In this document: positions 948-28,742 of the stretch, piece after piece
Layout: each line of letters starts with the position of its first letter
Numbering within the stretch: the first letter of the stretch is position 1
Source: a virus
DNA length: 30,610 nt
Virus record (IMG/VR): IMGVR_UViG_3300031772_000188
Location: 1-30,610 of that record
Reading direction: 5' to 3' (one strand)
Position numbers and translations under genes: made by a program
The notes under the pieces: model-generated
Databases searched by the model: none
What the model was told of the DNA's origin: nothing
Seen by the model: the letters and a program-made list of their open reading frames with translations, nothing else

Positions 948-1538
948 TTAAATATCTTTGTATTTTTCTTCTTTTAACTTTTCCATTATAAATCCGCCAA
1001 TGTATAATTGTTTTTTAACCCAATAATCAATCAACTCTTTGGTTTCATCATAATGCTCCGGCTCAAATTCTATTTTAATTGTTTTTTTTGTGCCTTCCGA
1101 TGTATCTGAATTATTCAATTGAATATCATCCGGTTTGCCATAATCAGTTTCATCCGGTTGCTGCCATAAATCCAATCCGGCTGCATCAATTAATTCGCTA
1201 TCCCAATTGTTCGCAAGAATGTCAAAATCCCAATCGCCAAATGATACATTGTCTGTAATCATAAATCTGCTAATCTGCATTTTATTAAATTCAGTTGCCA
1301 TAATAATTGGCACATCTTTTAATCCTGCTTCTTGACATGCGCGGTATCTTTGGTTGCCGCCAATTACAATCATTTCAGAATTAACAACAATTGGTCGCAA
1401 AAATAGCATTTCCGGAAATTCAATTATGCTTTTTAATAGCTTTTTGTATTTATAGTTTTTTATTATCCTTGGATTTGCCGGATTGATTTTTATTTTATCA
1501 ATCTTGACTATTTCAATCGGCATTAATTTAACATCCAT
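948..1538 (-). CDS. ParB/sulfiredoxin-fold domain protein
   Basis: 196 residues. The N-terminal part (about residues 8-100) has the ParB-type layout: INPANPRI near residue 18, a central VIGGNQRYRACQEAG motif (about residues 58-72) and KDVPIIMA after it. The following stretch with NVSFGDWDFDILANNWD is what I know from phage ParB-methyltransferase fusions, but here the protein ends without a methylase domain. The charged C-terminal tail is of unknown use. It sits just upstream of the terminase genes, a common place for ParB-like phage proteins, so a DNA-binding role around packaging or modification is plausible. The start may instead be the ATG at 1523, which would remove the 11-base overlap with the RusA-like gene. 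Confidence 0.8.
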   Translation of the reverse strand: MDVKLMPIEIVKIDKIKINPANPRIIKNYKYKKLLKSIIEFPEMLFLRPIVVNSEMIVIGGNQRYRACQEAGLKDVPIIMATEFNKMQISRFMITDNVSFGDWDFDILANNWDSELIDAAGLDLWQQPDETDYGKPDDIQLNNSDTSEGTKKTIKIEFEPEHYDETKELIDYWVKKQLYIGGFIMEKLKEEKYKDI

Positions 1539-1863
1539 ATTTGTTTATTTTAAATGCAATATATTCTTTTCCTTTACAAACTATTTTTTTAATAATGTAT
1601 AATTCATAAATCTGTTTGTCATCAAAATTATATCTTTTTTGTAAAATATCCAAAAATGGTTTAACCGGATTATCTATGTCCTTTGCTGAATTGCTAAAAC
1701 CAAATTCAATTTCTATGCTTAATTCGCCGGCAGGAATTTGCATTGGGGGTAATAAATAAAACAATTCTGTTTCATAGTTTTTGTATTTCTTGCTTTTATA
1801 TCTTCGGCCTTGCCATGCTTCGTTTACCGATAAAGGTTGTATTTGTGCAATTCCTTTAGCCAT
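1528..1863 (-). CDS. rusA: RusA-like Holliday junction resolvase
   Basis: 111 residues, close to the usual RusA length (about 120). RusA enzymes cut four-way DNA junctions and in phages clear branched DNA before packaging. The N-terminus PLSVNEAWQGRRYKSKKYKN is characteristic. The acidic metal-binding residues are present in SAKDIDNPVKPFLD (D62, D64) and in NFDDKQIYEL (D81/D82). The first 40 bases lie inside the 3' end of the HNH gene in another frame, and the 3' end overlaps the ParB-like gene, so these are tightly packed, probably co-translated genes. Family call is strong. Confidence 0.9.
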   Translation of the reverse strand: MAKGIAQIQPLSVNEAWQGRRYKSKKYKNYETELFYLLPPMQIPAGELSIEIEFGFSNSAKDIDNPVKPFLDILQKRYNFDDKQIYELYIIKKIVCKGKEYIAFKINKYGC

Positions 1864-4610: not shown

Positions 4611-5253
4611 AGTTGTTTTGTTTTTTAATTTTATTAAATGGTTGTTTTCTGTCCCAATTTTTTACCGCCGCAATCCAATCTAAATATTTTGCGCCTTTGC
4701 TTTCAGAATATCCAATGGCCGCTTCATGATAAAATTTACATTTATCATTTGGCCAATCCGGTAATTTTAAACAAAATTTTTCATATTCAAAATATTCACT
4801 ATCAGAAAAAAGGTGTAAACTCTTTTTATCTTTTAATTTAATATCCTTTATTTTATTTTCCTTTACTTTATTATCCTTTATAGCATTGCTTTCGCTATGC
4901 AATGGCTTTGCGGTTGCATTATTCCAACGCTTTGTTGCATTAGAACGCGCCTTTTCTGATTTTTCATTTCTTGCAATTAATCTTTTTTCAATTGATATGC
5001 TGCTAAAAAACCCATCATAAATTTCAAATAAATCAAAATCCATTACAACTTTTAAAATTGTTCCGGCATCAACGCGTAATTCATAAGCAATTAAATCGTA
5101 ATCACATGCCATTTTATTATCGTTGTTGTATAAATCTTCAATTAACGCCCAATAAATGCCATAACCTTGAATTCCTAAACAATAAATTAATCTTTTAATT
5201 TTTGCATCGCTGCGCGCATTGTAATCATGCGAAAAATAGAATGTTTCTTTCAT
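4531..5253 (-). CDS. DUF4373 / Lin1244-Lin1753-type replication protein
   Basis: 240 residues. The N-terminus (YFSHDYNARSDAKIKRLIYC, GIQGYGIYWALIEDLYNN, then a region around residues 50-85 ending in DLFEIYDGFFSS) matches the winged-helix domain found in phage replication-initiation and DnaD-like proteins. A lysine-rich linker (about residues 120-145) leads to a C-terminal part with FHEAAIGYSESKGAKYLDW-like spacing, as in the DnaD C-terminal region (YxDWxAAVKNW). The likely role is loading the host replication machinery at the phage origin. It is the first gene behind the promoter and ATTCGTA repeats at 5273-5330, fitting a regulated replication operon. Confidence 0.75.
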   Translation of the reverse strand: MKETFYFSHDYNARSDAKIKRLIYCLGIQGYGIYWALIEDLYNNDNKMACDYDLIAYELRVDAGTILKVVMDFDLFEIYDGFFSSISIEKRLIARNEKSEKARSNATKRWNNATAKPLHSESNAIKDNKVKENKIKDIKLKDKKSLHLFSDSEYFEYEKFCLKLPDWPNDKCKFYHEAAIGYSESKGAKYLDWIAAVKNWDRKQPFNKIKKQNNYEQGKSERDELRNRAEQFIANKLFGS

Positions 5254-5272
5254 TTTGTTTTGTTTTAGTGAA

Positions 5273-6318: not shown

Positions 6319-7158
6319 TTAGATATTAAGATAATTTGGTAATTCAAATTCGTATGCTCCATCGCTTCTGTTAGAATAAAATTCATAAGATTCCAACCAC
6401 GCATCTTGTAATATGCAGCGATTAAAATTTTCCAATAAATTATTTATTTGATTCATACCATAAGCGATTAAATCTTCTGATAATTTATTTACAGATACGC
6501 CGCCATTTCTATCAACTGCAATTAAATAATAATCGCGTTTGCCGCCGGCCAATTCGTACATCGCCGCTTGAATATGATATCCATACAAAATTGCATCGCG
6601 TTGAAATTTTTTTGGCTCTGCGCTTTGGACAATTTTTAAATCAATTCTAATTTTATCGTTTTCGCCATCAATAAAACTTTTGAATTTAAAATTATCATGA
6701 ATAAAATTATATTCTTTTTCAAATTCCAAACATTCATTTAATAACGCAGAAGATGTTTTGTTTGTTTTTAATGAATTTGCAATTAAATCAATTTCATTAA
6801 TTACATCTTTGTCAATTATTAATTTATTGCCTGCATCTTTTTTTAATGAATCCCAATATTCAATTGCATACAATGTATCATCGCTTGGTTTCTTTGCATT
6901 AATTTGAACGCTTGTTGGCTTCTTTGGCGCATTGTCATTAATTAAATAATAACTATCATAAAATGTACCAAAATCTAAAATGTAATTGTGCGCCATTGAG
7001 CCAAACGCCATCGCCGGCGTTTGCTCTTTTTGTTGAAACTTATAATGTAAAAATTCTAATGGCGATTTTTTAAATGATGACAACGCAGAATAACTTAAAT
7101 GCTTTTCATGGCTTAATAAACTATTTATTAAACCAAAAATTTCTTGCTGACTATACAT
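6319..7158 (-). CDS. PD-(D/E)XK exonuclease, RecE/YqaJ/DUF3799-like
   Basis: 279 residues. The N-terminal LSYSALSSFKKSPLEFLHYK and MAFGSMAHNYILD (H57) match the start of RecE-C/DUF3799-type nucleases. A core DKIRIDLKIV (D173, K175) is followed by the helix LYGYHIQAAMYEL (about residues 191-203), the QxxxY motif of the lambda-exonuclease group. Such enzymes chew one strand of double-stranded DNA ends to make tails for a partner annealing protein. The partner, ERF, is the gene immediately upstream with an 8-base overlap, so the two should form a Red-like recombination system. Confidence 0.82.
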   Translation of the reverse strand: MYSQQEIFGLINSLLSHEKHLSYSALSSFKKSPLEFLHYKFQQKEQTPAMAFGSMAHNYILDFGTFYDSYYLINDNAPKKPTSVQINAKKPSDDTLYAIEYWDSLKKDAGNKLIIDKDVINEIDLIANSLKTNKTSSALLNECLEFEKEYNFIHDNFKFKSFIDGENDKIRIDLKIVQSAEPKKFQRDAILYGYHIQAAMYELAGGKRDYYLIAVDRNGGVSVNKLSEDLIAYGMNQINNLLENFNRCILQDAWLESYEFYSNRSDGAYEFELPNYLNI

Positions 7159-7714
7159 TTTTAATATCGCTTTGGATTTGCTTTAAAACTGCGGCAGAAA
7201 CATTAACCTTTTCGTAAACATCATCAATGGTAATTTCGCCGCTCTTTAATTTTAAAACGCATTGATTGTATGCCGGCGTTCCATGAATTAAATCCTTTTT
7301 TTGTTTTATTTCTGCCGGCACATCTTTACCATGTGTATTTGTCGAATCCGCATCTTTTGAATCATCTAACAAAAACAGATTGCCCAATGCGCGTTTTAAA
7401 GCATAGCTGCTTGATGCACCAAACGATTGCGACAAATCCATTCCCTTTCGATTTAATTCGATTCCTGCGTTTCCTTTTGCGCTTATTGGCGCAGGCCAAT
7501 CCTTGTGAATAATAGTACATGTTGATTCAATAAATAAAACTCCGGATAATTCTTTTACTTCATCATTGTTGGTTAATAAACAACCATGCTTTGCGCAAAT
7601 TGGTTTTAATGCTTCTAAAATATCTTCGGCAACTCTATGATTGTAATTGCCAAATTTATTAAAATGGTTTTTTGGTGCTTTTAATTCGTTTTGAATTTCA
7701 ATTAATTGTTTCAT
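7151..7714 (-). CDS. erf: ERF-family single-strand annealing protein
   Basis: 187 residues. ERF proteins anneal complementary single strands during phage recombination. Signature parts are visible: FNKFGNYNHRVAEDILEALK (about residues 19-38), CTIIHKDW (about residues 66-73) and MDLSQSFGASSSYALKRALG (about residues 92-111), the most conserved ERF segment. The C-terminal third is a variable tail, as usual. It forms a pair with the overlapping exonuclease gene. Confidence in the family is high. Confidence 0.88.
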   Translation of the reverse strand: MKQLIEIQNELKAPKNHFNKFGNYNHRVAEDILEALKPICAKHGCLLTNNDEVKELSGVLFIESTCTIIHKDWPAPISAKGNAGIELNRKGMDLSQSFGASSSYALKRALGNLFLLDDSKDADSTNTHGKDVPAEIKQKKDLIHGTPAYNQCVLKLKSGEITIDDVYEKVNVSAAVLKQIQSDIKNV

Positions 7715-9038: not shown

Positions 9039-9053
9039 TTTTTTTGTTTTTGT

Positions 9054-9082
9054 TTTTTTTGCAGTTATGGATGCTGCGCCCC
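9054..9082 (-). repeat. 29-bp intergenic element, copy 1
   Basis: Identical to 11178-11206 over 29 bases. On the minus strand it reads GGGGCGCAGCATCCATAACT followed by GC and a run of A. In both copies it lies between the stop of one small gene (with TAATTTTAAA directly before it) and the A-rich leader of the next. GCAG and CTGC could pair around a 9-base loop. The neighbouring genes are unrelated, so the element itself is what is shared. Confidence 0.75.
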
Positions 9083-9091
9083 TTTTTAAAA

Positions 9092-9640
9092 TTAACTATT
9101 TTGTTGGAATAACCAAAGTGATGTATCTGCCCCTATATTATAATCAACCTTATCTTGCATGGTTTCAGATAAAGAAATTAATTCAACAGAACGATTGGCA
9201 AATTTTGAATTTAATGTGCCGGTATAAATAACTTTAAATTCATAGATTTTTGTAACAACCTTAAAACCTTTTTTTGCAAAGGTTGATTGATTTTTTGTTG
9301 CGCCAACAAATGACACATTGTTTTCAGAATGTTGAATAATAAAACACAATCCAAATTTGCCATTAACTAATCTTTTTGATAACACATTGCCATCCATGTC
9401 CTGCAATTCATAAGCATACGCAATTTCCTTGCAAAATCCGCCATTTTCTTCCTGCTCTAAAACATTATGAAGCATGCCTCGCATTCTTGACATTTCAAAA
9501 TCCTGCGCTTGGTCGCATCTGCCGCCCCATGAATAATCATCAACGCAGTTGTAATAATTCATCATGCGATAATCTGTGTTCTTGTTATGCTCAATTTTTA
9601 AAGCATTAATTTCGTTTTGAATTTTTTCTGATAGTTTCAT
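9092..9640 (-). CDS. Hypothetical early protein
   Basis: 182 residues from the ATG at 9640. A longer reading from 9700 would run through the terminator stem and is rejected; the chosen ATG has the same leader (CAAAACGAAAATG) as the gene at 10909. The N-terminus is helical (KLSEKIQNEINALKIEHNKN), followed by YYNCVDDYSWGGRCDQAQDF and a strand-rich second half. No known family. The terminator directly in front and the 29-bp element directly behind make it an independently flanked gene cassette. Confidence 0.6.
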   Translation of the reverse strand: MKLSEKIQNEINALKIEHNKNTDYRMMNYYNCVDDYSWGGRCDQAQDFEMSRMRGMLHNVLEQEENGGFCKEIAYAYELQDMDGNVLSKRLVNGKFGLCFIIQHSENNVSFVGATKNQSTFAKKGFKVVTKIYEFKVIYTGTLNSKFANRSVELISLSETMQDKVDYNIGADTSLWLFQQNS

Positions 9641-9677
9641 TTTCGTTTTGTCTAAAGTTTTAAATTTTTTTTGGTTT

Positions 9678-9707
9678 AAAAAAATGCGCCGGCATTGCAC
9701 CGGCGCA
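9678..9707 (-). terminator. Intrinsic terminator
   Basis: On the minus strand TGCGCCGG (9700-9707), a 7-base loop and CCGGCGCA (9685-9692) form a perfect 8-bp GC-rich stem followed by seven T (9678-9684). It stands 8 bases after the stop of the 159-residue gene. Stem arm, T-tract and the following leader are nearly identical to the copy at 10947-10976. Confidence 0.85.
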
Positions 9708-9714
9708 GAATAAA

Positions 9715-10194
9715 TTAAAAGTTATAATCGTAATGCTTGTATGGTGCATCGGCCATTAAAAATCTTCCTTTGCCCCAACCATTTTTTCCCTTTCTTAATC
9801 TGATTGTCGGTCTGCTTGGAACTGAAATGTATTCATAATCTTGGTTGTGATTATCTGCGCAATGCGCTGAAAAACCGCCAACATGAAATATCTTTGGAAA
9901 TACGATTTGATTTGTATCCAATTCGCGAACTTCAACGCAATTTTCTGAAATTACTTTTACAACTTCGTAAGGCTTTACATCCGAATACATGTATTCATTA
10001 ATAAAAGAACGAATTTTTGTTGTAAAAAAATGGCCTTTACAAAAATCTTTTAATCTGTATTCAACATTAATCATGTGATTAACAACTTCTTTCACTTCGG
10101 CTTTATCTTGCGTTGCGATAAAGTCAAACCAAACTTGTCGGTCAATTTGTTTTCTGTCCATTGCTCTGTACATTTTTCTAATTTGATTGTTCAT
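9715..10194 (-). CDS. Hypothetical early protein
   Basis: 159 residues. Helical first half (MNNQIRKMYRAMDRKQIDRQ, EVKEVVNHMINVEYRLKDFC), then strands with VKVISENCVEVRELDTNQI and a Gly/Arg/Lys-rich end (TIRLRKGKNGWGKGRF). The basic, glycine-rich tail could bind nucleic acid, but no family is recognised. It has its own promoter (10216-10264) and terminator (9678-9707), so it is a single-gene transcription unit, apart from read-through. Confidence 0.6.
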   Translation of the reverse strand: MNNQIRKMYRAMDRKQIDRQVWFDFIATQDKAEVKEVVNHMINVEYRLKDFCKGHFFTTKIRSFINEYMYSDVKPYEVVKVISENCVEVRELDTNQIVFPKIFHVGGFSAHCADNHNQDYEYISVPSRPTIRLRKGKNGWGKGRFLMADAPYKHYDYNF

Positions 10195-10215
10195 TTCGTT
10201 TTGTTTTTAGTTTTT

Positions 10216-10264
10216 TATGCCCTATTGCATAAACAAATATAGTCAAACACATTAAAAAACAAAA
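10216..10264 (-). promoter_or_regulatory. Promoter with TATGC-N6-GCATA operator, copy 1
   Basis: Minus strand: TTTTG at 10260-10264, an 18-bp spacer, TATATTTG at 10234-10241, then the inverted repeat TATGC-N6-GCATA at 10216-10231, starting 2 bp past the -7 box. This is a full match to the Bacteroidota TTTG/TANNTTTG promoter. The dyad covers the expected start site and is likely an operator. The same arrangement with 18-bp spacing is found at 11424-11471. Confidence 0.72.
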
Positions 10265-10356
10265 CTATTTTTTACTTTATTTAACTTTTATTGCAAAAAC
10301 CGGCTTTAAATGGTCAAAAAGGCCGAAAATAATTTCAAAAAAAATGCATATAAATG

Positions 10357-10378
10357 AAAAAACCGGCATAAACCGGTC
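10357..10378 (-). terminator. Intrinsic terminator
   Basis: Minus strand ACCGG-TTTATG-CCGGT (10362-10377) followed by a run of T (10357-10362). It is 25 bases past the stop of the 168-residue gene at 10403. The stem is short (5 bp) but GC-rich. It precedes the promoter at 10216-10264, giving a stem-loop plus promoter unit. Confidence 0.7.
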
Positions 10379-10402
10379 TTTTCTATTAAATTTTAGGATA
10401 TG

Positions 10403-10909
10403 TTATTGGCATTTCTTTTTACAATTGCCATGTCTGTTTGATTCTGCTGAATTTATATCCCTGCCACACTTATTGCAACTTGAAACAAATTCATCGCCAT
10501 GTTCATTGCGTTCAACATCTTCGGTTTCAACTTCTGTTTCGCTTTCAACAAAATTATTAAAATAATTTTTCAACTCTAAAATGGCCGCATATTTCCATGT
10601 TGAAACCTCGCGATGCAATGTTGCGCTGCTATTTGACTTTATGTTGTTTTTATAATTTAAAAAACGCTCTAAATCTTCAATAATAATTTGAATTCTTTTT
10701 TGTTCTGACCAATCAATTGTGTCATCATTTAAAAAAGATAGTTTAAAAATCAATTCTTGTTGTTCAAATTTTAGTTTAAAAATATCTTCGCCAATAAATG
10801 GGAATTCAGCTATAAAATTATTGTCCAATTTTTGTTTTAGATGTTGAATTTTTCCATCTAAATTATTGATTAAATTGCTTATTTCTTTTTTGATACTTGA
10901 ATTTTTCAT
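10403..10909 (-). CDS. Hypothetical protein with C-terminal zinc-ribbon-like cysteines
   Basis: 168 residues. The first 90 or so are helical and charged (KKEISNLINNLDGKIQHLKQ; LIIEDLERFL-type spacing), suggesting coiled coil. An acidic linker (ESETEVETEDVERNEHGDE) leads to a C-terminal cluster C145xxC148 ... H160 ... C163xxxC167, which could bind one zinc ion. Function unknown. It is bounded by a terminator on each side (10947-10976 and 10357-10378), so it looks like another separate cassette. Confidence 0.6.
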   Translation of the reverse strand: MKNSSIKKEISNLINNLDGKIQHLKQKLDNNFIAEFPFIGEDIFKLKFEQQELIFKLSFLNDDTIDWSEQKRIQIIIEDLERFLNYKNNIKSNSSATLHREVSTWKYAAILELKNYFNNFVESETEVETEDVERNEHGDEFVSSCNKCGRDINSAESNRHGNCKKKCQ

Positions 10910-10946
10910 TTTCGTTTTGAATAAAGTTTTAAATTTGTTTTAGTTT

Positions 10947-10976
10947 AAAAAAATGCGCCGGCCGAAACCGGCGCAT
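10947..10976 (-). terminator. Intrinsic terminator
   Basis: Minus strand ATGCGCCGG (10968-10976), 6-base loop, CCGGCGCAT (10953-10961), then T-tract (10947-10953). A 9-bp perfect stem. It sits 6 bases after the 59-residue gene. The 55 bases from here to the next ATG (10907-10961) differ from 9638-9692 at only four positions. Confidence 0.87.
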
Positions 10977-10982
10977 GATGAA

Positions 10983-11162
10983 TTATTTATTTAACCAATC
11001 TTTGATTTGAATTTGATAGATTAAATTTAATTGATTCCATTTCAATGCGGAAATTTTTTCCGCTTCTTGAATTGGTAATTTTAATTCGATTTGTAAAAAA
11101 AATGACCGATTGACCGAATCATTTGAATCCCAAATTTTTTGATAATTAACTTGTGTTGCCAT
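10983..11162 (-). CDS. 59-residue hypothetical protein
   Basis: Translated by hand: MATQVNYQKIWDSNDSVNRS, then two probable helices (LPIQEAEKISALKWNQLNLI) and end IKDWLNK. The start has an A-rich leader (aaacaaaacagaaATG) and the gene lies neatly between the 29-bp element upstream and a strong terminator 6 bases after its stop, which is good evidence for a real gene despite its size. No family recognised. Confidence 0.6.
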   Translation of the reverse strand: MATQVNYQKIWDSNDSVNRSFFLQIELKLPIQEAEKISALKWNQLNLIYQIQIKDWLNK

Positions 11163-11177
11163 TTCTGTTTTGTTTTG

Positions 11178-11206
11178 TTTTTTTGCAGTTATGGATGCTG
11201 CGCCCC
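11178..11206 (-). repeat. 29-bp intergenic element, copy 2
   Basis: Exact copy of 9054-9082, again placed between a stop codon followed by TAATTTTAAA-like sequence and the A-rich leader of a small gene. No T-tract follows the possible GCAG/CTGC stem on the minus strand, so it is not an ordinary terminator. A leader RNA element, a protein-binding site or a recombination linker would all fit. Confidence 0.75.
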
Positions 11207-11214
11207 ATTTAAAA

Positions 11215-11403
11215 TTATTTTACTAATGTGTAAATAAAAGATGCTTTTTCTATTTCAGAAATTTTTTGACCTACAATCCAATCATATGGTCTGCAATTAG
11301 GGTCTTTTAAATATTCAGAAATTAAATCTTTAATTAACTTGGTTTCTGAAATAGTTAATAAATTATTTCTATTCCATTTTTTGTTTAAAATAAAAGGTTT
11401 CAT
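11215..11403 (-). CDS. Small hypothetical protein
   Basis: 62 residues from the ATG at 11403 (MKPFILNKKWNRNNLLTISE). A TTG-initiated reading from 11430 would begin inside the operator dyad and is less likely. The chosen ATG has a typical leader (aaaacaaaacaaaATG). The sequence is basic at first, then helical (ETKLIKDLISEYLKD), with DPNCRPYDWIVGQKISEIEK near the end. Not recognised. First gene behind the promoter at 11424-11471. Confidence 0.6.
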   Translation of the reverse strand: MKPFILNKKWNRNNLLTISETKLIKDLISEYLKDPNCRPYDWIVGQKISEIEKASFIYTLVK

Positions 11404-11423
11404 TTTGTTTTGTTTTGGTTGTG

Positions 11424-11471
11424 TATGCAATATCGCATAAAGTAAAGATACACAATAAAATTAAAAAACAA
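11424..11471 (-). promoter_or_regulatory. Promoter with TATGC-N6-GCATA operator, copy 2
   Basis: Minus strand: TTG at 11469-11471 (within TATTG), 18-bp spacer, TATCTTTA at 11443-11450, then the dyad TATGC-N6-GCATA at 11424-11439. It is a diverged copy of the promoter at 10216-10264: the GTTTTTTAAT block after the -33 box and the dyad are shared. The -7 box ends in A rather than G, so it may be weaker. Confidence 0.62.
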
Positions 11472-11550
11472 TATTTTTTTTTACTTTTTTTTAATTTGTG
11501 GCTTAATGATATCAAAAACGCAGAAAATAATTTAAAATAAAATTACCATA

Positions 11551-11580
11551 AAAAACAAATGGCCGGTAAAATACCGGCCA
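11551..11580 (-). terminator. Intrinsic terminator
   Basis: Perfect 9-bp stem TGGCCGGTA/TACCGGCCA with a 3-base loop (11560-11580); on the minus strand ATTTGTTTTTT follows. About 50 bases past the stop of the spanin-like gene, so it likely ends the portal-lysis transcript. The sequence next to it resembles that beside the stem at 10357-10378. Confidence 0.72.
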
Positions 11581-11631
11581 AATGAACCTATTTAAAACTA
11601 AAACACTATGAATTATCAAAGGTAATAATTA

Positions 11632-16754: not shown

Positions 16755-17480
16755 TTACAAATTAAAATGATTTGGTACATCTATTGTTTTATGATTTTTA
16801 AAATGTATCATTTCGCCGGTTGTTTCAAATTTATCCCATAATTCATATTGTCCAACAAACGCAGATGATGAACTTGAATTGCGCAATTTACGCGTAATGC
16901 ATTCGCGCACAAAAGAATAATGATGCATTCTTAACCATTCTATTTCTTCATGAACTTCAAATGTGTTTGTTCTTCTTGTTGGGTCAGCAAATGCAGGGTA
17001 TCTTCTATCAAAACACATTATTGTTTCCGGATAAATTTTGTGAATGAATGGCACAAAATAATCTTCATCCGGAACGATTTGTTTTGTTGGATATTTATAA
17101 TATGTTTTCAACTTACAATAAGATGCATCCAAATCCTTTTCATAAACAATTTGTTTTGCTGCTTCAAAATGATGCGAAAAATACATTTCATCGCAATCCA
17201 TTTGAATAAAATGTGTGCATCCAATCATCTTTGCTAATTGCAAACCTCTATTTCTTTTGTATGTTTCATTCCATTGTGCAGATGCATCTAATTTTGGAAT
17301 ATAAAATTCATTAAAATCTAATATATCAAATGGTATATTAGGCTCATAAATCTCTCCTATGTTACTCATATTCTGATAAATAACAATTACCGCATCTAAA
17401 TGCGGTTTGATTAATTCAATTGACCGGCGCAAATGTTCATCGCCATCCCATACATTCCAAATCCCTGCTAATTTATTCAT
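16755..17480 (-). CDS. Glycosyltransferase, GT2-like (GT-A fold)
   Basis: 241 residues. Starts with AGIWNVWDGDEHLRRSIELI and IVIYQNMSNIGE, as in sugar transferases that begin with a GT-A nucleotide-binding fold. NRGLQLAKMIGCTHFIQMDC has DCDE at residues 95-98, the DxD metal site. The second half has HEEIEWLRMHHYSFVR. Substrate unknown. Last gene of the glycan cluster, 47 bases before the portal gene, and overlapping the membrane-protein gene by 8 bases. Confidence 0.72.
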   Translation of the reverse strand: MNKLAGIWNVWDGDEHLRRSIELIKPHLDAVIVIYQNMSNIGEIYEPNIPFDILDFNEFYIPKLDASAQWNETYKRNRGLQLAKMIGCTHFIQMDCDEMYFSHHFEAAKQIVYEKDLDASYCKLKTYYKYPTKQIVPDEDYFVPFIHKIYPETIMCFDRRYPAFADPTRRTNTFEVHEEIEWLRMHHYSFVRECITRKLRNSSSSSAFVGQYELWDKFETTGEMIHFKNHKTIDVPNHFNL

Positions 17481-17748
17481 AATAAGAAGATAAAATTCCG
17501 ATTAAATAATTTAATCCGGCAGCAATAATCGCAACCGGTATTAATTGTAAATTAAATTCATAAAAAATTGGATACCAAAACAAAGTATGAAACGATGCCA
17601 TGCATGTTAAACACAAGCAAATTGGTTTTCCTAAAATTGCCGGCAATTTTGTTGCAATTCTTTGTACGAAAAACATGATTTGTCCAAATCTTGTAACTTG
17701 GTAAAATCCAAAACAAAGTAAACTAATAATTAATGCTTTTTCTATCAT
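17473..17748 (-). CDS. Small membrane protein with CxxC (DUF1360-like)
   Basis: 91 residues. Three hydrophobic segments (about residues 4-22, 42-60, 68-86) and a motif KPICLCLTCMASFHTLFW with CxCxxC. The KPxxxCxxCMAS pattern followed by aromatic residues occurs in small membrane proteins of Bacteroidota phages and in DUF1360. Inner-membrane location is predicted. It lies between two glycosyltransferase genes and overlaps both, so it may be a membrane partner for glycan export, which is inference from context. Confidence 0.62.
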   Translation of the reverse strand: MIEKALIISLLCFGFYQVTRFGQIMFFVQRIATKLPAILGKPICLCLTCMASFHTLFWYPIFYEFNLQLIPVAIIAAGLNYLIGILSSYYE

Positions 17749-18374
17749 AATAAAATTCCTTTCATTTCATTTGGTACATATTGCGGAAATATAAATTCAT
17801 GTGGATGCTTTTTCATAAGATATAAAATGTTTCTTTTTTGTTGCTCCCATTTTTTATCGCCTTTATAATTGCGCAACCTTTCAAAATCATTGTGCATTAT
17901 GTAATTAAAATTCATTAATTGTTTTTTAACCAATCCTTTTCTTGTTAATCCAATGTATAAATCGGTATCTTCGCCGCCATATCCAATAAAATTTTCATCG
18001 TATCCAATAAAATCTTCTTTTTTTACCATGCAATTTCCACTACAATGCGGCTCGCCGGTATAATAATGGCCGGATTGCAAATTTAAATTATCAAAAAAAT
18101 TTTTTTCAAATAATGTATCGGCATCCGCAAACAAAATCCATTCACTTTTACATTCCGCAGCACCAATATTACGCGCCGCAGATAGATTAAATCCTTTTGC
18201 TTCAACCATTATGCCAATTGCGTTCTTTTGCGCCCATTTAAAGGCTAATATATCGCCATACGCAACAATTATAACCCTTATATCTTTACGCGCTCCAATC
18301 GCTTCTAATAGCGTTTCATGGCATTTGCGTAAATGCGGCAATCTGTCTTTGCAAGTTATTACAATGTCAATCAT
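17745..18374 (-). CDS. Glycosyltransferase, GT2/GT7-like
   Basis: 209 residues from the ATG at 18374, which forms an ATGA overlap with the methyltransferase gene; a start at 18404 would add ten residues of that gene's other frame. IDIVITCKDRLPHL opens the GT-A fold, GFNLSAARNIGAAECKSEWI leads to FADAD (DxD at residues 84-86), and YGGEDTDLYIGL (about residues 132-143) matches the GGEDDDL motif of galactosyltransferase C-terminal (GT7) domains. Likely adds a hexose to a growing glycan. Sugar and acceptor unknown. Confidence 0.82.
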   Translation of the reverse strand: MIDIVITCKDRLPHLRKCHETLLEAIGARKDIRVIIVAYGDILAFKWAQKNAIGIMVEAKGFNLSAARNIGAAECKSEWILFADADTLFEKNFFDNLNLQSGHYYTGEPHCSGNCMVKKEDFIGYDENFIGYGGEDTDLYIGLTRKGLVKKQLMNFNYIMHNDFERLRNYKGDKKWEQQKRNILYLMKKHPHEFIFPQYVPNEMKGILL

Positions 18375-18910
18375 TTTACAACCAAAATTCCAATGCCGCC
18401 CCACGCGCCATCGCTTTCAATTATTTCGTATGCTTCAAATCTATCATCTTTGTTTATTTCATCCCAAAACAAATCAACCCTGCAAAATAATTCGCGATGT
18501 AATGGCGTATCTAAAATATCATGAAAAGCAATTACGCCGCCTTTCCTAACTAATTTATGATATAATTCAAAATCCGATTTAACGCCTTCATAAGTATGGT
18601 CGCCATCTATCATTAAAAAATCAATCTTTGTATTTTTACCGCCGATTGTTTCTTTTAATATTGATAATGCATTGTGACTATCGCCAATAATATAAACAAC
18701 TTCTTTTAATAGCGAAAGATTTTCCAAATCAATTGAAATTGTTTTTTCAAATATTTCTTTGTATGCATGTAAACAACCGCCATCGTAACTGCCTATTTCT
18801 ACTGCAATTTTTTTACTTGACATTGTATCTAAAAAGATTAACAACTTTTCAAATTCTTTTGGATGTTGCTGCGCTTTATTTTCTAAAGCTAATTTTACTA
18901 ATTTTTTCAT
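18371..18910 (-). CDS. SAM-dependent methyltransferase (Methyltransf_24/CmcI-like)
   Basis: 179 residues. Motif I is AVEIGSYDGG (36-45), an acidic residue after the second strand is D61, and IDGDHTYEGVKSDFELYHKL (101-120) with AFHD (128-131) is characteristic of the Methyltransf_24 group that methylates small molecules or sugars. Position inside the glycosyltransferase operon suggests that it methylates a sugar made or attached by its neighbours. Starts 2 bases after the upstream gene. Confidence 0.8.
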   Translation of the reverse strand: MKKLVKLALENKAQQHPKEFEKLLIFLDTMSSKKIAVEIGSYDGGCLHAYKEIFEKTISIDLENLSLLKEVVYIIGDSHNALSILKETIGGKNTKIDFLMIDGDHTYEGVKSDFELYHKLVRKGGVIAFHDILDTPLHRELFCRVDLFWDEINKDDRFEAYEIIESDGAWGGIGILVVK

Positions 18911-18912
18911 TT

Positions 18913-19566
18913 TTAAATTGTTCTATGATGGTTAAAATATGCATTTCCTTTGCTACCAAATTGACATGGCGATTGATTTAATTTTATTCCTGCTTCAATT
19001 GCTAAATTTGTTAAAATTGCTTGGTCATGGCGATGTTCTTTAAATTTTGTTATTTGAATTTCATTATTATGTTCATCGTTTACAAGCATAAGATTTGAAC
19101 AAGCAAAAAAATAATCTGTTAAGAATGTTTGCGTTGCTTCTGTGTTTTTATAAATCTGAATTGCTGCATTTGCTTGTAATTGGTCTAATGCGGAATAAAT
19201 AGCCATGCTATAATAACATTCCGCCTTGCAATATTCATGATGCAATTGGCCATTATTGTAAAGAATTATATCTTCTTTAGTTTTTATTAATTCAAATGGA
19301 TTTTTTAACACTTCAATTGTTGAATCTAAATAAATGACATAATCATCCGCCGGCAATTCGTTTAATGTTTTAGAAATTAAAAAAGGTTTCCAAAGCCACC
19401 ACCCAAATCCTTTGCTATTAAAAAAATGTTGCGGATATAATTCTAATAAATCCATAACATCAAATTCATTATAGGTAATAACACTTGCATAATCCTGCGC
19501 AGATGCGCGCAATTTTTTCATTGCATTATCATACCTTGCCGTTCCAAATGTTATTATCTTTGGCAT
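18913..19566 (-). CDS. Glycosyltransferase-like protein, capsule type
   Basis: 217 residues. GFGWWLWKPFLI (53-64) followed by DDYVIYLDS (74-82) is typical of GT-A-fold enzymes linked with capsular and surface polysaccharides, with D81xS as the metal site in place of a standard DxD. EHRHDQAILTNLAIE near the C-terminus is also a hallmark. Likely transfers a sugar; acceptor unknown. Overlaps the GT10-like gene by 13 bases. Confidence 0.7.
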   Translation of the reverse strand: MPKIITFGTARYDNAMKKLRASAQDYASVITYNEFDVMDLLELYPQHFFNSKGFGWWLWKPFLISKTLNELPADDYVIYLDSTIEVLKNPFELIKTKEDIILYNNGQLHHEYCKAECYYSMAIYSALDQLQANAAIQIYKNTEATQTFLTDYFFACSNLMLVNDEHNNEIQITKFKEHRHDQAILTNLAIEAGIKLNQSPCQFGSKGNAYFNHHRTI

Positions 19567-20333
19567 TTGCTTAAAATATAATTAAATATATTTAATTCAT
19601 AAAAATAAAAATCTTTTTGTTCTTGCACCATGCTTGCGCTATCGCCCAAAGTAAACAATTCAATGAATGCAGTTAAATTATCAATTGTATTTTCTTTTAT
19701 TGCATGATATGGAATTGGAATTGCACCGCAAATAATTATATCCCAAAACTTTTCAGTTACATAAAATTCTTGCACGCAATTTTCAATACAAATTGATGTA
19801 TGATAATCTAACAATCCTTGACTTTTATTTTCGATTGCGCCCTTCCACCTGCTATCAAATACATTCCAATCCTTACCATAAATATCAATCGGTAAATCTG
19901 TTTCTAAAATTTGATGAACTAAATTATTTCTGAATTCATACAATGTGCCATCTTGCGGTTGGTGCTGCGCAACAATAAAGCTACATGGTTTTGTTTTTTC
20001 AACTTTTAAATTTATTGCATCTTCATAATCCAATCCGCTCCAATTAAACATCATTGGCAATTGTTTATTTGTTGGCGAAATAAATTCTGCGCATCTATCA
20101 TTCCAATCCACAAAATTTAAACTCCATGTTGGCTCTTGCGATAATACAAAAATATTTTCTTTGCTTACTTTAATATCGCCATCCCAATTATTAAAAATAA
20201 ACAATACATCATAAGTATCATCGTAAACAAATTCAAAATTAATTTTAAATTCTTTTGGTGCAAATTGTCTAATGACTTCACTTGTTAATCGTTTACTATC
20301 AGCATAATTGCTGACTAATCTAATTTTTAGCAT
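19554..20333 (-). CDS. GT10 (fucosyltransferase-type) glycosyltransferase
   Basis: 259 residues. The C-terminal half holds the GT10 signature: DIYGKDWNV (150-158), a conserved K170, LLDYHTSICIENC (174-186), YVTEKFWD (191-198) and CGAIPIPYH (202-210). In alpha-1,3-fucosyltransferases these bind GDP-fucose. The N-terminal half (YDDTYDVLFIFNNWDG; FVLSQEPTW) fits the acceptor domain. GT10 enzymes are not common in phages, so this gene was probably acquired. The exact donor cannot be read from sequence. Overlaps neighbours at both ends. Confidence 0.85.
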   Translation of the reverse strand: MLKIRLVSNYADSKRLTSEVIRQFAPKEFKINFEFVYDDTYDVLFIFNNWDGDIKVSKENIFVLSQEPTWSLNFVDWNDRCAEFISPTNKQLPMMFNWSGLDYEDAINLKVEKTKPCSFIVAQHQPQDGTLYEFRNNLVHQILETDLPIDIYGKDWNVFDSRWKGAIENKSQGLLDYHTSICIENCVQEFYVTEKFWDIIICGAIPIPYHAIKENTIDNLTAFIELFTLGDSASMVQEQKDFYFYELNIFNYILSKCQR

Positions 20334-27716: not shown

Positions 27717-28742
27717 TTACATTGGAGAATGTGAAAATTTAACCCATGCGCCACCTTGATAACAACACATATGATTTAATGTGGTATTGTATAATAACAA
27801 TCCGTTTGCCGGTGTTGTAATTGCATTGATTTGTGTGGTTGTTAATCTTGGAAGCAATGCGCCTTTTGTTGTTGAAGACATGTGCAATTGTGCGGTTGAA
27901 TCAATTGTTGTTAATCCGATACCAACTGCGCCGCCTGCGGTTGTTGCAAGATACGCACTATTTGCATTTCTAAATGTACCATTCACATCAAATTTAAAGC
28001 CTGCCGATGTAATTCTATTTACAACAACATCGCCCCCTTGCGGATTAAATGCAATGACATTAAAAATTGTATCATCTGTTGAATTATAATTTTGAAACCA
28101 TGCTGCGCCTGCGGTATTAATACCGGCATCTAAAACTTGCGTTTGAACAAAATTTCCAAATCTTGAAACCCAATTGACCGGCGCGCCACCGCCCGATGAA
28201 GATGGACTAATACCCAAATTCGTATAGAATTTTGTACTTGCATTGCTAAATGTTTTTGTTCCCGTAATTGATTGCGTTCCTGCTAAAGAAACATAATTTG
28301 TCAATGTACTATTTAGCGTTGTTGTCAAAACATAATTTGCTAAATTTGATGCTAATGTACCATTCGTAACATAGCCTGCTAATGTTGAAGACAAAGAAGC
28401 ATTGGTAACATAGTTTGCCAATGTGGATGCTAATGATGCGTTCGTTACATAAGAAGATAATGTAGATGCTAAAGAAGCATTTGTTACATAATTTGCCAAT
28501 GTGCCGGTTGTAACATAGCCTGCCAATGTAGATGCTAAACTTGCGTTTGTAACATAAGAAGCCAATGTACTCGCTAACGAAGCGTTTGTTACATATTGAC
28601 TTAAATTTAATGCGGTCTGCATAAAGGTTGCCATCTGATTTGGCGTTCCTTTTAAAGTTACGCCGGCTTGCACTAATGGAAATTGTTCTGTCCCTGCGAA
28701 TGCTGCGGCGTTTGTTAGTTGTGATATTTTTTTAGTTGCCAT
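27717..28742 (-). CDS. Tail-fibre-like protein with 13-residue repeats
   Basis: 341 residues. N-terminus MATKKISQLTNAAAFAGTEQ, FPLVQAGVTLKG is a virion-attachment type segment seen in Bacteroidota phage fibres. Residues 50-149 are eight tandem units of the type YVTNASLASTLAS (one shortened to 9 residues), which should form a trimeric shaft. After GTQSITGTKTFSN comes a middle domain, and the end (STTKGALLPRLTTTQINAI, NGLLLYNTTLNHMCCYQGGA) is the receptor-side C-terminus common in Bacteroidota phage fibres. Likely involved in host attachment. Confidence 0.8.
   Translation of the reverse strand: MATKKISQLTNAAAFAGTEQFPLVQAGVTLKGTPNQMATFMQTALNLSQYVTNASLASTLASYVTNASLASTLAGYVTTGTLANYVTNASLASTLSSYVTNASLASTLANYVTNASLSSTLAGYVTNGTLASNLANYVLTTTLNSTLTNYVSLAGTQSITGTKTFSNASTKFYTNLGISPSSSGGGAPVNWVSRFGNFVQTQVLDAGINTAGAAWFQNYNSTDDTIFNVIAFNPQGGDVVVNRITSAGFKFDVNGTFRNANSAYLATTAGGAVGIGLTTIDSTAQLHMSSTTKGALLPRLTTTQINAITTPANGLLLYNTTLNHMCCYQGGAWVKFSHSPM
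28296..28595 (-). repeat. Tandem 39-bp coding repeats in fibre gene
   Basis: Eight units in the coding sequence for residues 50-149 of the fibre protein. Seven are 39 bp (13 codons) and one is 27 bp. The DNA copies use different synonymous codons, so they are not recent exact duplications; the first seven are close at protein level and the last (YVLTTTLNSTLTN) is diverged. Confidence 0.8.

Follow-up and report, generated by a model that had tools for sequence, protein, structure and literature searches.

The window analysed here, the complete 30,610 nt stretch of virus record IMGVR_UViG_3300031772_000188, carries at 9039-11580 an array of small genes (g1 to g6 in sense order, all on the minus strand) that are separated by recurrent intergenic linkers. 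From sequence comparisons we consider it very probable that this region is an accessory-gene exchange site heading the early operon, where the linkers would provide the homology for cassette swapping. Comparison with related contigs shows exchange with its edges in the linkers and, at linker B, homologous joining in register.

Repeated linkers separate unrelated genes

In sense direction the array reads A-g1-C-g2-B-g3-A'-g4-B'-g5-C'-g6, and the mapped positions bear out the order A-gene-C-gene-B-gene-A-gene-B-gene-C-gene that the preliminary description had read from right to left. Its central observation, three linker types in two copies each between six unrelated small genes, holds far beyond chance. 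The best ungapped direct repeats score 47 for B, 31 for C and 20 for two A blocks, and none of 60 dinucleotide shuffles exceeded 16, so that chance can be excluded for the B and C repeats. The six genes, described as not visibly related, each fall into a separate cluster. Also as described, C is an exact 29-bp element in both copies, B is a GC-rich terminator plus leader (B and B' have 59 bp in common at 93% identity, each with a hairpin and T run), and the TATGC-N6-GCATA dyad is exact in both A copies.

Two of the earlier claims need amendment. Linker A is present twice as regards its layout (hairpin, promoter, dyad), but sequence identity is merely 69%, and as A' is nearer to the A of a relative, L005 (75.5%), the two represent a common layout rather than a recent duplication. 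Linkers A, B and C are joined by a fourth, D (TTAACCAAATTTTTAAACCTCAAAACAAAA), a bare leader found only in relatives (L002, L004, L005), so that there are at least four types. The linkers belong to the cassettes and not to the operon generally, as cassette genes are 52-228 bp apart while gaps between downstream core genes range from -10 to +18 bp. No further copies of complete linkers occur elsewhere in the 30,610 nt.

Permuted genes in close relatives

The proposed shuffling of cassettes between phages is supported by the aligned relatives, where identical linker types flank different genes in different orders; neither a constant gene set and order nor freely varying linkers around conserved genes was found among them. 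No two of the five close genomes agree in both gene set and order, and the linker types recur among them (x, z and g7 are genes from relatives): besides the window, the arrangements are A-g2-B-g5-C-g6 (L001), A-x-B-g3-D-g5-C-g6-B-g7 (L002), A-z-D-g3-D-g2-D-x-C-g6-g7 (L004) and A-x-C-g3-D-g2-B-g6 (L005). Gene g2 comes before g3 in the window but after it in L004 and L005, which is a permutation and not mere thinning, while x is first in L002 and L005 and fourth in L004. At least two kinds of start context were seen for each of g2, g3, g5, g6, g7 and x. The g3 alleles are only 34-41% identical among phages with a nuclease that is 94-97% identical, and must thus originate beyond the immediate lineage.

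Up to the first of two junctions, L001 and the window are 99.9% identical; L001 lacks g1, g3 and g4. At this first junction g1 and C are absent, and the leaders of A and g2 are joined within the 13-bp A/C-rich tract AAAACAAAACAAA. At the second, g3-A'-g4-B' is absent and the remaining B is chimeric between the two B linkers of the window, being B1-specific through CTAAAAC on the 5' side and B2-specific from GAC on the 3' side, with the switch inside the common 15-mer AAATTTAAAACTTTA. In this comparison the crossover tracts are the 13-bp leader and the 15-bp B stretch rather than whole linkers. Assembly collapse of repeats as the source of the L001 difference was dismissed by inference, as the shared tracts, at 13-15 bp, fall below the k-mer lengths usual in assembly and L001 has its own scattered single nucleotide polymorphisms.

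One slot with many cassettes in a distant clade

In a distant clade (nuclease ~61-63% identical; gene clusters are designated by F numbers), 24 contigs have a slot between A and the g7-like F6 that holds exactly one open reading frame (ORF) or none. Ten unrelated cassette genes occupy this slot: F18 in five contigs, F21 in four, F28 in three, F22 (which is g1) and F31 in two each, and five singletons; three slots are empty. Two additional contigs, L094 and L107, hold two further slot ORFs, which are outside the clustering comparison. The empty slots (L028, L031, L036) are also without C, the A leader leading straight into F6; together with the joint absence of g1 and C in L001, this suggests that the unit gained or lost is an ORF with its trailing linker, which appears to be the moving unit.

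Among 189 pairs with different cassettes, mean identity is 91% for F1, 90.5% for A, 82% for C and 84% for F6, while that of the cassettes (46%) is at the level of shuffled cassettes used as baseline (45%). On the flank trees the cassette label switches 13 times (upstream) and 14 times (downstream), the possible minimum being 10, for contigs that stem from overlapping metagenome projects and are incompletely independent. Contigs L018 and L020 show 1/183 differences in the cassette and 39/584 in the flanks, whereas L018 and L010 show 31/183 in the cassette versus 19/583 in the flanks (P 3e-9). L018 therefore has L010-like flanks and an L020-like cassette, with differences from L020 resuming no more than ~8 bp from the ATG and at the stop codon. 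In two other same-cassette pairs (L017/L026, 1/186 versus 41/581; L021/L033, 0/284 versus 65/1101), near-identity continues into the leader or the promoter and into C. The recombination tracts stop at the ORF edges or close to them.

Deeper in the early operon, the distant clade has another gene of variable presence, F16 (123 aa), which lies between F12 and F13 (for instance in L009, at 16439) and is missing from L011; F9 is represented in L015 and L020 by a 142-aa version instead of 58 aa.

Structure of the linkers

The layout and position of linker A are kept in L001, L002, L004, L005 and the distant clade, where its terminator hairpin has -16.8 kcal/mol. Its promoter combines a TTG/T-tract with a TANNTTTG-like box and is of the Bacteroidota sigma consensus type; in Flavobacterium, -33/-7 promoters of the form TTTG/TANNTTTG and the favourable effect of upstream adenines are established (PMC6847099). 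The dyad that follows may act as an operator or form a hairpin at the 5' end of the mRNA. In the distant clade, the stem in the A leader varies compensatorily (TATCGA/TCGATA, ACCGA/TCGGT, GACCGA/TCGGTC, TGTCG/CGACA). The formal covariation count is moderate, with 14 of 500 shuffles equally high; the stem is absent in seven contigs of that clade (L011, L014, L015, L025, L030, L036, L039), and no covariation was seen in the A leader hairpin within the window's own clade. Upstream of A are holin, endolysin and nuclease genes, and downstream are those for Erf, a RecE-like exonuclease and a replication initiation protein; judged from this gene content, A sits at the late/early gene boundary. The tract AAAACAAAACAAA also occurs at 5254-5266, directly before the start of the replication initiation protein gene (5253), and is thus not exclusive to cassettes.

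The hairpins of B and B' have energies of -17.7 and -18.6 kcal/mol. Linker C, present in one or two copies, consists of a core (GGGGnGCAGCATCCATnACTGC) that in the window copy ends 22 bp before the ATG, the leader running directly to the start codon. On the sense strand it is not a terminator. The 22-bp core is near-identical across phages carrying unrelated genes and was found in merely 27 contigs of the whole viral_contigs collection; two matches in bacterial and archaeal genomes, in unrelated metagenome-assembled genomes, are close to chance expectation (estimated ~0.5).

Cassette genes and phage group

Purifying selection (dN/dS 0.07-0.32) acts on most of the cassettes for which pairs could be compared, this ratio being uninformative for L021/L033 (identical) and L017/L026 (nearly identical). 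Scans against PHROG, Pfam and PADLOC assigned none of the cassettes a convincing function, and the AlphaFold models were too poor for a structure search (pLDDT 31 for g5, 57 for g3). The window's g3 has a Cys-rich C-terminal extension (CNKCGRDINSAESNRHGNCKKKC, 10403-10540), which its homologues in L002, L004 and L005 (124-126 aa) lack. Our guess is that the cassettes are host-takeover or anti-defence genes, which would fit their first position behind the early promoter, their small size, fast turnover and number.

An indication of the host comes from the portal protein, with relatives in Nonlabens and Cellulophaga phages, that is, phages of Flavobacteriia; the viral group probably infects Bacteroidota. 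A blastn search of the region gave no match to isolate phages, an Rfam search gave no score near the gathering threshold, and an A1 protein scan and an A-linker pattern scan produced zero additional close relatives.

Table 1. Positions of linkers, genes and sequence elements in the window
Feature	Position	Strand	Remarks
Linker A	11404-11631	-	terminator hairpin, promoter, dyad, leader
A terminator hairpin	11560-11580	-	
A -33-type TTG/T-tract	11460-11471	-	
A -7-type box	11443-11450	-	TATCTTTA
A dyad	11424-11439	-	TATGCGATATTGCATA
A leader tract	11404-11416	-	AAAACAAAACAAA; ATG next
g1, 62 aa	11215-11403	-	family also in slot of L016 and L037; dN/dS 0.30
Linker C	11163-11214	-	conserved core, A/C-rich leader; exact 29-mer 11178-11206
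C core	11185-11206	-	GGGGCGCAGCATCCATAACTGC; then A/C-rich leader including tract 11169-11181
g2, 59 aa	10983-11162	-	behind A in L001, behind D in L004/L005; dN/dS 0.11
Linker B	10910-10982	-	GC-rich hairpin and T run, leader
B hairpin and T run	10954-10975	-	folding z -4.4
B crossover tract, 15 bp	10922-10936	-	
g3, 168 aa	10403-10909	-	homologues in L002, L004, L005, 34-41% identity
Linker A'	10195-10402	-	terminator-like hairpin, promoter, dyad, leader
A' terminator-like hairpin	10356-10383	-	
A' TTG/T-tract	10251-10262	-	
A' -7 box	10234-10241	-	TATATTTG
A' dyad	10216-10231	-	leader downstream
g4, 159 aa	9715-10194	-	no relative found in viral contigs
Linker B'	9641-9714	-	hairpin and T run, leader
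B' hairpin and T run	9685-9707	-	folding z -3.8
B' crossover tract, 15 bp	9653-9667	-	
g5, 182 aa	9092-9640	-	also in L001 and L002; dN/dS 0.07
Linker C'	9039-9091	-	second exact 29-mer copy, 9054-9082
g6, 74 aa	8814-9038	-	behind C in window, L001, L002, L004; behind B in L005
Erf-family ssDNA-annealing protein	7151-7714	-	proposed recombinase; PHROG 155 E 1.4e-31; Pfam ERF E 7.3e-26
RecE-like exonuclease (exonuclease VIII family)	6319-7158	-	proposed Erf partner; PHROG 412 E 2.5e-31
RusA-like Holliday junction resolvase	1528-1863	-	PHROG 34 E 3.6e-9

Elsewhere in the window, tandem repeats with a 39-bp period (28329-28595, repeated NASLASTLANYVT motif) lie in an ORF (27717-28742) that likely encodes a tail-fibre-type protein. 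A gene run in the structural region (16755-20333) resembles glycosyltransferases or methyltransferases by eye, with one weak PHROG methyltransferase match.

Proposed mechanism and alternatives

We propose that linker A terminates the upstream lysis-gene transcript, restarts transcription at its Bacteroidota-type promoter and has an A/C-rich translation leader at its end, while each cassette ORF would be trailed by B, C or D, ending in a similar leader before the next ATG. As leaders and linker cores are alike, homologous recombination, whether it involves different phages or a pair of linkers in the same genome, could delete, insert or replace ORF-plus-linker units, and the promoter, start sites and core genes would stay intact. 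We infer that the phage's own Erf and RecE-like exonuclease carry out this exchange. Erf and other Rad52-like phage recombinases, which have been implicated in mosaicism, recombine diverged sequences efficiently; in lambda, Rad52-like pairs, among them Erf/Exo of phage D3, exceeded the RecA pathway ~20-fold on identical and 100-fold on 78%-identical substrates (PMC3945230).

Several points weigh against this interpretation. The relatives are metagenome contigs throughout, and the exchange is read from their comparison, which fits a deletion in L001 as well as an insertion in the window. As the L001 junctions share just 13-15 bp of homology, they could also have been produced by RecA or by annealing-independent joining. 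Clean breakpoints alone do not prove targeted recombination, as selection would purge recombinants broken inside wanted genes. Strong terminators in B and B' lie inside a presumed single operon, ahead of g3 and g5, and no TANNTTTG promoter was seen between them and the next ATG. Linker C as a stable RNA hairpin finds no support in folding, there being only a 4-bp stem and no significant predicted fold (z -0.4).

It is possible, if rather unlikely, that the linkers are simply regulatory elements under selection, and that genes turn over by illegitimate recombination with only linker-edged products surviving. The B and A hairpins are indeed good terminators, A has a Bacteroidota-type promoter, the leaders are A-rich as Bacteroidota translation would want (PMC6847099), and the 13-bp tract also precedes the gene starting at 5253. 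Random joining followed by selection would explain the clean edges, but neither the B of L001, an in-register chimera of both window linkers, nor the near-invariant 22-bp C core, which exceeds the need of an A-rich leader; nor would one expect same-cassette pairs whose genomes have otherwise diverged to show near-identity tracts stopping at the slot edges or close to them. With similar reserve we regard as tentative the idea of a plug-in site for early anti-host genes, where the trailing linker restores the start context and C is a lineage-specific RNA- or protein-binding element making the inserted ORF compatible with translation of the next gene.

An integron-like capture, with C or another linker as the site of a dedicated site-specific recombinase, is very unlikely. 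C is short, highly conserved, restricted to few contigs and occurs together with a cassette, but the L001 junctions lie in B and the leader tract and not at C, L030 carries a B-type hairpin linker where C would stand, and the window ORFs scanned, which were not all of them, gave no match to an integrase or transposase family. Least likely of all are recent local duplications within one genome that involve no exchange between phages. The B pair (93% over 59 bp) and the exact C pair could be read in this way, but this explanation is already contradicted by the relatives, in which the same linkers precede other genes and g3 has diverged far more than the nuclease; the low identity of A and A', with A' nearer to the A of another phage, also argues against it.

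The comparison provides evidence at the sequence level, part of it a recombinant linker found between two near-identical genomes, of how phages exchange individual accessory genes and leave the operon undisturbed. Linkers A and C offer a search handle for the fast-turnover early genes between them (at least ten families here), and it would be sensible to include the slot genes in screens for anti-defence or host-takeover functions. In archaeal viruses, searching by regulatory sequence has succeeded in finding anti-defence genes (PMC11065993).

Comparison with known systems

The open-access literature searched contained no comparable system in Bacteroidota phages. The preliminary description had likened the linkers to the promoter-early stem-loop cassettes (PeSLs) of T4-type phages, reportedly described by Arbiol in 2010 and by Comeau in 2014; the comparable workings stand, while there is no homology and the linkers are not PeSLs by descent. 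PeSLs (discussed in PMC4503421) are short promoter and stem-loop/terminator units between small early genes, proposed as homology for gene shuffling among related phages. In both systems the motif surrounds different genes in related phages, and the composite of promoter and terminator hairpin is found here in A and A' only. B is a terminator plus leader, C a 22-bp core plus leader and D a bare leader, so that the promoter is confined to A. Further differences are the arrangement as one slot or a short array at the operon start, and the setting, a 30.6-kb record with a Bacteroidota-type promoter and portal relatives in Flavobacteriia phages, unlike the T4 superfamily with T4 early promoters.

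Lambdoid phages have short conserved boundary sequences at module edges, and morons, accessory genes with their own promoter and terminator. Recombinant junctions inside a short homologous boundary sequence have their counterpart in the chimeric B and the leader-tract junction of L001; here, however, an interchangeable set of linkers is reused within one genome around single small genes. Cluster K mycobacteriophages carry start-associated sequences (SAS/ESAS), 13-bp GGGATAGGAGCCC elements that occur 11-19 times, each a few bp ahead of a start codon (PMC3203893). Like C, these are lineage-restricted short repeats just before the starts of non-structural genes of different families, but C is not a Shine-Dalgarno-like 13-mer, has only 1-2 copies and is tied to gene exchange. 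In the haloarchaeal virus HGTV-1, a TATA-like and inverted-repeat motif precedes many ORFs, with a suggested role in regulation and shuffling (PMC3950731). The repeated promoter/inverted-repeat motif ahead of ORFs is similar, but that virus is archaeal, and the shuffling suggested there is backed here by recombinant junctions. Integron attC sites, with inverted core sites and a large stem after each ORF, differ from C, which has a 4-bp stem and no significant fold. By analogy, then, the system resembles the PeSLs of T4-type phages, lambdoid boundary sequences and the start-associated sequences of cluster K in its apparent working, and is not homologous to them.

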